NCBI RefSeq assembly: GCF_028288105.1 | Contig: NZ_JAQBOI010000253.1 | Coordinates: 1 to 34,503, forward strand | Direction: 5' to 3' | Length of the DNA: 34,503 nt | Origin: Mucilaginibacter sp. | GTDB taxonomy: Bacteria; Bacteroidota; Bacteroidia; Sphingobacteriales; Sphingobacteriaceae | Shown here: positions 32,972 to 34,503 of the stretch, piece by piece | Numbering within the stretch: position 1 is the first letter of the stretch | Layout: every line of letters begins with the position of its first letter | The notes under the pieces: generated by a model | Databases searched by the model: none | What the model was told of the DNA's origin: nothing | The model's input: the letters and a program-made list of their open reading frames with translations, nothing else | Program-made: the position numbers and the translations under genes

Positions 32972-34234
32972 ATGAATATTTTAAAACGACACCTTTTAGT
33001 TTTCACCTTTCTGCTTCTACCCCTCGCTATGCGGGCGGCCTCTATCCTTATCCCCATGGATGATGAGCAGAAAGATCATCTAAAATCGTACGGCATTGCT
33101 TTCTGGACGTTGAAGAACGGCGAAACGGTAGATTGGCTGCTCAACTACCGCGGCGGCAGCTTTATGATGAAGTATGATAAAAAACTGGAAGACGAGTGCA
33201 AGATCCGTGGTGTTAGCTACCAGGTTTTACCCGATGCCAAGGTAAACGAAATAATTAACGAGGTTAGCGACCCGTCTGTTAACATGGATATTGTTAAGCT
33301 GGAGAAAGCACCCAAAATGGCGGTGTATTCGCCCAAAAATAAACTACCCTGGGATGATGCCGTTACCCTTGTTTTAAAATATGCTGAGATCCCTTATGAT
33401 GTTATTTACGATGAGGAAGTGATACGCGGCGATCTGCCAAAATACGACTGGCTACACATGCACCATGAGGATTTTACGGGGCAGTTCAGCAAATTTTACG
33501 TTTATCGTTATGCGCAATGGTATAACGATGATGTAAAAGGTCAGCAAGCTATGGCGACTAAACTGGGCTTTAAAAAAGTTTCGCAAATGAAACTGGCAGT
33601 GGTACAGCACATTCGCGATTTTTGCGCCGGTGGTGGCTTCCTGTTTGCCATGTGCAGCGGTACCGATACCTTCGATATTGCCCTGGCAGCTTCCAAGACT
33701 GATATTGTAGAAAGCATGTTTGATGGCGACCCTGCCGACCCGGATGCGCAATCAAAACTTGATTTTACACAAACTTTCGCTTTTCAGAATTTCACGCTCG
33801 ATCAAAACCCAACGTCGCACCAGTTCAGCAATATCGATGTTACATCGATACGGCAGGTAGAACGCAGCCGCGATTTTTTCACCCTGTTTGATTTCTCGGC
33901 CAAATGGGATGTGGTGCCCAGTATGCTTACACAAGATCATGATAAGGTGATAAAAGGCTTTATGGGCCTTACAACCGCTTACAATAAAAGCAAACTTAAA
34001 CCTGGCGTTACCATAATGGGCGAAATGAAAACCGCCAACGAAGCCCGCTACATACACGGCGAATTTGGCAAAGGCCAATGGACTTTCTATGGCGGCCACG
34101 ACCCCGAAGATTATCAGCACGCCGTAGGCGACCCGCCAACTGATCTTAAGCTGCACCCAAATTCGGCAGGGTACCGGTTGATATTAAACAACGTACTGTT
34201 CCCGGCAGCTAAAAAGAAGAAACAGAAAACTTGA
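32972..34234 (+). CDS. Secreted protein with class-I-amidotransferase-like features (often labelled asparagine synthetase B)
   Basis: A 420-aa exported protein: signal peptide MNILKRHLLVFTFLLLPLAMRA, then ASILIPMDDEQKDHLKSYGI. From memory, the family is widespread in Bacteroidota and often carried as asparagine synthetase B, yet no N-terminal catalytic Cys, PP-loop or synthetase domain of AsnB is visible. Instead there is an apparent flavodoxin/GATase-like order: strand KMAVYSPKNKLPWDDAV, then YDWLHMHHEDFTGQF, and an elbow GGGFLFAMCSGTDTFD with C228. H376 in GHDPEDYQH is a possible partner. The end is NSAGYRLILNNVLFPAAKKK. It is preceded by a GC-rich structured element and a promoter-like box; a repeat follows its stop. 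Family recognition moderate; function unknown. Confidence 0.75.
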   Translation: MNILKRHLLVFTFLLLPLAMRAASILIPMDDEQKDHLKSYGIAFWTLKNGETVDWLLNYRGGSFMMKYDKKLEDECKIRGVSYQVLPDAKVNEIINEVSDPSVNMDIVKLEKAPKMAVYSPKNKLPWDDAVTLVLKYAEIPYDVIYDEEVIRGDLPKYDWLHMHHEDFTGQFSKFYVYRYAQWYNDDVKGQQAMATKLGFKKVSQMKLAVVQHIRDFCAGGGFLFAMCSGTDTFDIALAASKTDIVESMFDGDPADPDAQSKLDFTQTFAFQNFTLDQNPTSHQFSNIDVTSIRQVERSRDFFTLFDFSAKWDVVPSMLTQDHDKVIKGFMGLTTAYNKSKLKPGVTIMGEMKTANEARYIHGEFGKGQWTFYGGHDPEDYQHAVGDPPTDLKLHPNSAGYRLILNNVLFPAAKKKKQKT

Positions 34235-34318: not shown

Positions 34319-34503
34319 TTAATTATAGAACGTCCACGCTACACCAAACTTTAACATTTTATCCATTTGCGGGTAGCGGTTTACGGTGTAGAAACCATTG
34401 CTAAAAATACCCTGGTTTACATAATCATATTGGATAAAAAGGTTGGTACGCTGTAGGGTAGCTTTAAAAAATACTGTTGCTATAGGGTATGAAGTAAAGG
34501 TAA
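34319..34503 (-). CDS. 3' end of an outer-membrane beta-barrel (porin-like) gene, truncated by window end
   Basis: The ORF is not in the track. On the minus strand the frame is open from the window edge to TAA at 34319-34321, giving 61 residues: TFTSYPIATVFFKATLQRTN, then LFIQYDYVNQGIFSNGFYTV, then NRYPQMDKMLKFGVAWTFYN. Alternating aromatic and polar residues and a terminal aromatic (TFYN) are typical of the last strands of an outer-membrane barrel recognised by BamA. The pattern YPQMDKMLKFGV-W-F resembles the C-terminus of Bacteroidota putative porins (Porin_10 type); the assignment to that family is tentative. Convergent with the secreted protein gene. Confidence 0.65.
   Translation of the reverse strand, partial: TFTSYPIATVFFKATLQRTNLFIQYDYVNQGIFSNGFYTVNRYPQMDKMLKFGVAWTFYN

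Follow-up and report, generated by a model that had tools for sequence, protein, structure and literature searches.

A conserved exported protein of Mucilaginibacter with a predicted class I GATase-like fold and an invariant elbow cysteine

The plus-strand open reading frame 32972..34234 of Mucilaginibacter, lying in a window that is one entire contig of 34,503 nt, encodes a 420-residue protein. With a probability of about 0.52, we read it as an exported enzyme of class I GATase-like fold, a cysteine-dependent hydrolase or amidase with C228, H376 and D377 or E379 at its active site, whose evolution is tied to DUF4159 and to envelopes bearing the type IX secretion system (T9SS); the catalysis, the triad, the periplasmic location and the substrate class are what we infer within this reading. 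The protein belongs to a family that is usually single-copy, exported, at least 54% identical phylum-wide and near-invariant at 99 columns, a conservation like that of housekeeping enzymes, and yet has neither a Pfam or NCBIfam model nor a solved relative by sequence. This is probably an enzyme of the cell envelope that has gone unrecognised. Few exported proteins of the class I GATase-like clan are known to retain an intact Cys elbow, and the literature search found no paper on the family and none on DUF4159.

Gene and domain organization

The presence and coordinates of the ORF were confirmed. Comparison with five congeners, in which dS is near saturation, returns a dN/dS of ~0.03-0.06, indicative of strong purifying selection; 32972..34234 is therefore a real, conserved gene, and it occurs as a single copy in its own genome. 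All the features described below lie on the plus strand. By its sequence, MNILKRHLLVFTFLLLPLAMRA|ASIL, the N-terminus looks like a Sec/SPI signal peptide (residues ~1-22, 32972..33037) with a cleavage site judged by eye at ~MRA|AS, a model helix at residues 3-19 and no lipobox Cys. It is followed by an α/β extension (residues 23-110, 33038..33301) that has no family match and contains the invariant motif N58-Y59-x-G61-G62, and then by the GATase-like domain (residues 111-416, 33302..34219), delineated from the AlphaFold2 model and Foldseek. This domain contains the HMHHEDFTGQ loop (residues 162-171, 33455..33484), the putative nucleophile elbow GGGFLFAMCSG with C228 (residues 220-230, 33629..33661) and the GHDPE motif with H376 (residues 375-379, 34094..34108). 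The earlier note had described a secreted protein with a signal peptide and had placed the two latter motifs; the Sec/SPI-type N-terminus agrees with the former, and the motif numbering is exact. Although the C-terminal tail FPAAKKKKQKT (residues 410-420, 34199..34231) is poorly ordered in the model, with low confidence, K419-T420 are invariant and, of 95 homologues derived from ORFs, 94 stop exactly at T420, which suggests that the C-terminus is recognised. The tail is not known to correspond to any sorting signal.

Neither the 420-residue protein nor a single one of 47 homologues matches a Pfam or NCBIfam model above noise, searches of the PDB by sequence (phmmer and a profile search) return no significant match for the family, and viral structures, phages and plasmids searched for it yielded nothing useful. 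Elsewhere in the window, the ORF at 773-2023 (416 residues), also devoid of any Pfam match, adjoins a partial GMP synthase.

Predicted fold and candidate active site

The AlphaFold2 model, computed with 47 homologues, has a mean pLDDT of 89 and a pTM of 0.88. Strand 223-227, C228 and helix 230-239 form a predicted strand-turn-helix nucleophile elbow, while GGHDPE stands just past strand 368-373 and the HHEDFTGQ loop past strand 160-163. Foldseek searches of the PDB, run with the full model and then with residues 111-420 alone, are dominated for both queries by class I GATase-like folds among the 50 matches listed. The best solved match is STM3548 (E 2.9e-7), and others include STM1381, lin1909, the GH42 middle domain, the CTP- and GMP-synthase glutaminases, TrpG and SpuA, together with ThuA-like proteins and the ThuA-like levan-binding protein Bt1761. 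The probability is ~1.0 for all the top matches from STM3548 to TrpG, and the TM-score over the target is 0.63-0.65 for lin1909, the GH42 middle domain, the CTP-synthase glutaminase, the GMP-synthase GATase subunit and TrpG (0.65 for the latter); whole-domain TM-scores are modest, at 0.35-0.65, and sequence identities to the fold matches are ~10%. Profile-profile comparison by hhalign with ThuA, DUF4159, PF07090 and PF00117 returns no significant match. Given these low identities and the lack of a significant profile-profile relation, membership of the class I GATase-like superfamily is, as judged from the predicted model, at the fold level only.

The class I triad GATases (PF00117: TrpG, the GuaA subunit, the CTP-synthase glutaminase) share with the family the flavodoxin-like fold (TM over target at most 0.65), a Cys at a strand-turn-helix elbow and, beyond a late strand, a His and then an acid. 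In contrast, the family is exported, possesses an extra N-terminal domain, and is devoid of a synthase partner, none being seen in the neighbourhoods examined. Its elbow reads AMCSATD and not GxCxG, its His-acid motif is H-D-P-E whereas the classical triad spacing is H-x-E, a long insertion separates the Cys from the His, and no PF00117 sequence match is reported. The hydrolytic class I GATase relatives of the Peptidase C26 or PuuD-type gamma-glutamyl hydrolases (lin1909, SpuA) match in fold (3fij, 7d4r/7d53) but not in sequence, and the family differs from them by its export, extra domain and tail. The GATase1_like proteins PF07090 (STM3548, STM1381) provide the best Foldseek matches, 2gk3 and 3soz; however, the sampled members lack the Cys elbow (HMNGGWLSF), are called cytoplasmic and have no sequence similarity to the family. 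ThuA-like proteins (PF06283) adopt the same fold (1t0b and 4jqs were matched), and the elbow region GGGFVGVHAASDTE resembles GGGFLFAMCSATDSF, but ThuA has a His at the nucleophile place, PF06283 returns no match and the profile-profile score is not significant. Lastly, the DUF4159 proteins (PF13709), which we take to belong to the GATase clan, are also exported and exhibit GGFLHIDDNYG at the elbow place, but they comprise ~220 residues with an Asp at the elbow, and their profile-profile similarity to the family is not significant.

Among 118 non-identical homologues, 54-90% identical to the window protein, C228 is present in all 118. It is the sole invariant Cys of the three in the protein (C76 is found in 91/118 and C218 in 35/118) and in 10 homologues the mature part contains no other. 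H376, D377 and P378 are likewise retained in 118/118 each, E379 in 117/118, and residues H162, H164, H165, E166, D167, F168, G170 and Q171 of the HMHHEDFTGQ loop in 118/118. Since conservation reaches 98% or more in 99 of the 420 columns, that of any single residue would be weak evidence alone, and it is its combination with the elbow position that counts. At this position ThuA members carry a His and DUF4159 proteins an Asp; because non-catalytic relatives of the fold lost the Cys, its strict retention argues for catalysis. The amidotransferase fold proposed in the earlier note is thus borne out by a confident model and its Foldseek matches, and the two outcomes it had named as adverse, a variable C228 and a fold unrelated to class I GATases, were not what we found: C228, like H376, is invariant, and the matches are mostly class I GATase-like. 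Its DJ-1 comparison fared less well, as DJ-1/PfpI is absent among the 50 listed PDB matches, the likeness being to GATase, ThuA and C26-type folds.

If we assume that the protein is an enzyme, it would be exported, most likely to the periplasm, where the elbow residue C228 would attack as nucleophile while H376, together with D377 or E379, would serve as general base. The HHEDFTGQ loop, which occupies the place of the GATase oxyanion/substrate loop, may shape the pocket. The bond cleaved would be of the amide or glutamyl type, in an envelope molecule, and the enzyme would share a process with the exported DUF4159 protein in bacteria that possess the type IX secretion machinery. A free periplasmic glutaminase would have no obvious acceptor, which counts against this hydrolase reading.

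Other readings of the fold and of the name

The GATase fold is also found in non-catalytic binding domains, which would qualify the new activity suggested in the earlier note. The main rival, possible though we consider it doubtful, is an exported protein of ThuA-like type that binds or scaffolds without catalysis: its fold would engage a glycan or another protein, and C228 would be structural. ThuA-like proteins, the GH42 middle domain and Bt1761 are indeed among the Foldseek matches, and precedents are available: Bt1761 (8aa2) is a levan-binding SGBP whose C-terminal domain is ThuA-like (PMC7618045), and PelA contains a ThuA-like domain proposed to bind carbohydrate or to act as a bridge (PMC12022489). 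In the family studied here, invariant residues are spread widely along the protein, down to the disordered C-terminal KT, as for a scaffold with multiple partners. However, the relatives in question have dropped the elbow Cys, whereas the family keeps it in 118/118 together with the His and the acid after the matching strand.

An improbable reading is that of a DJ-1/PfpI-like redox-sensitive or stress protein of the envelope, with C228 oxidisable or forming a disulfide. The superfamily fold is the same, the single invariant Cys belongs to an exported protein, and the distribution is nested within T9SS carriers; moreover, parts of the T9SS track are known to be linked by disulfides (PMC12635249). 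The known disulfide partners in the text consulted are GldK, SprF and PorG, without the family protein. Besides the absence of any DJ-1/PfpI structure among the listed matches, the DJ-1_PfpI model returns no Pfam match with family members, and the Cys sits at an elbow, where it is typically buried.

That the product is asparagine synthetase B (AsnB, a class II GATase joined to Asn_synthase), the common name quoted in the earlier note, which had itself doubted it, is hardly conceivable, this quoted name being its sole support. The protein starts with MNILKRH and a signal peptide and not with a catalytic MCGI..., the PP-loop SGGxDS and the N-terminal MC are both absent, and Pfam searches with 47 family members return neither Asn_synthase (PF00733) nor GATase_7. 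A true AsnB is encoded elsewhere in the same genome, with 614 residues, an MCGIFG start and SSGIDSS. Judged by these defining sequence features, the AsnB identity is refuted. NCBIfam assigns no name to the family, for which 'asparagine synthetase B' is apparently a wrong name; one Bacteroidetes paper names an 'asparagine synthetase B' without identifying the gene (PMC9478572).

Distribution and gene neighbourhoods

The family is found in 59 of 60 relatives. Of 297 genomes sampled across the phylum, 209 have it, 216 have DUF4159 and 229 have the T9SS translocon SprA. All 209 family-bearing genomes possess both DUF4159 and SprA, while the family occurs in none of the 81 genomes devoid of DUF4159 and in none of the 68 devoid of SprA. 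With 20 SprA genomes lacking the family, its distribution is nested within the SprA carriers. Seven genomes have DUF4159 without the family; their DUF4159 matches are comparatively weak (E from 8.6e-57 to 3.6e-4) and may represent the second DUF4159 subfamily. Joint absence recurs across several genome families (f1 with G061, f15, f22, most of f25, f31, f37, and f43 with G282), which speaks against one single accident of phylogeny. Phylogeny does account for part of the T9SS nesting, though, since many of the SprA-less genomes belong to one family (f37). Overall, co-distribution suggests a functional link of the family to DUF4159 and the T9SS, and the nesting within both sets of carriers makes the role testable by gene removal. 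More speculatively, and rather unlikely in this full form, an ancestral phylum-wide envelope Cys enzyme would partner DUF4159 in an as yet unrecognised step of outer-membrane or type IX secretion biology. It might, for instance, trim or modify an exported substrate or a polymer of the envelope, its invariant ...KKxxKT tail serving for docking or as a signal for processing.

A role as a gliding-motility gene was considered and rejected: the gliding lipoprotein GldB, found in 73 of the 297 genomes, hardly occurs beyond the window's class, to which ~157 of the genomes with the family do not belong.

In the window's class, the gene is often located after accA-dnaB, dnaB being the upstream neighbour in 30 of 78 loci, and convergent Porin_10, PNP or LpxK genes are common (~33/78). 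At 34319-34501 of the window, the contig end cuts off a convergent gene; by analogy with relatives, what remains is probably the 3' part of a gene for a Porin_10 outer-membrane protein. In other classes, most of the family-bearing loci sampled have a secreted TPR protein directly or nearly directly upstream; it comprises ~610 residues in the three examples L238:7704-9524, L242:5732-7582 and L231:3987-5960. An assignment of this neighbour as PorW was rejected, the PorW/SprE model matching only far below its cut-off. DUF4159 lies within ~10-13 kb of the family gene in three genomes, and the intervening genes are housekeeping genes (GlyA, TatC, RpiB and a glycosylase, named by eye) instead of a MoxR/BatA-type cluster. 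The neighbourhoods, in which a single functional operon was sought, give no operon-level function.

DUF4159 neighbourhoods contain rsmE, named by eye, in only 7 of 16 cases. The Mucilaginibacter genome itself encodes two DUF4159 proteins (G000:C32:6512-7175 and G000:C63:369-965), the first of which follows an RsmE-like gene. Two copies of the family gene are present in G018, G023, G029, G033 and G037, in tandem at G018:C15:260637-263251 and at G037:C19:4808-7362. The copy at G328:C53:3634-4885 is broken over three overlapping frames, owing to assembly frameshifts or as a pseudogene. Finally, a family member at 65% identity is found at L099:10001-11266, in a metagenome-assembled genome (MAG) labelled Alphaproteobacteria; this contig is probably misbinned.
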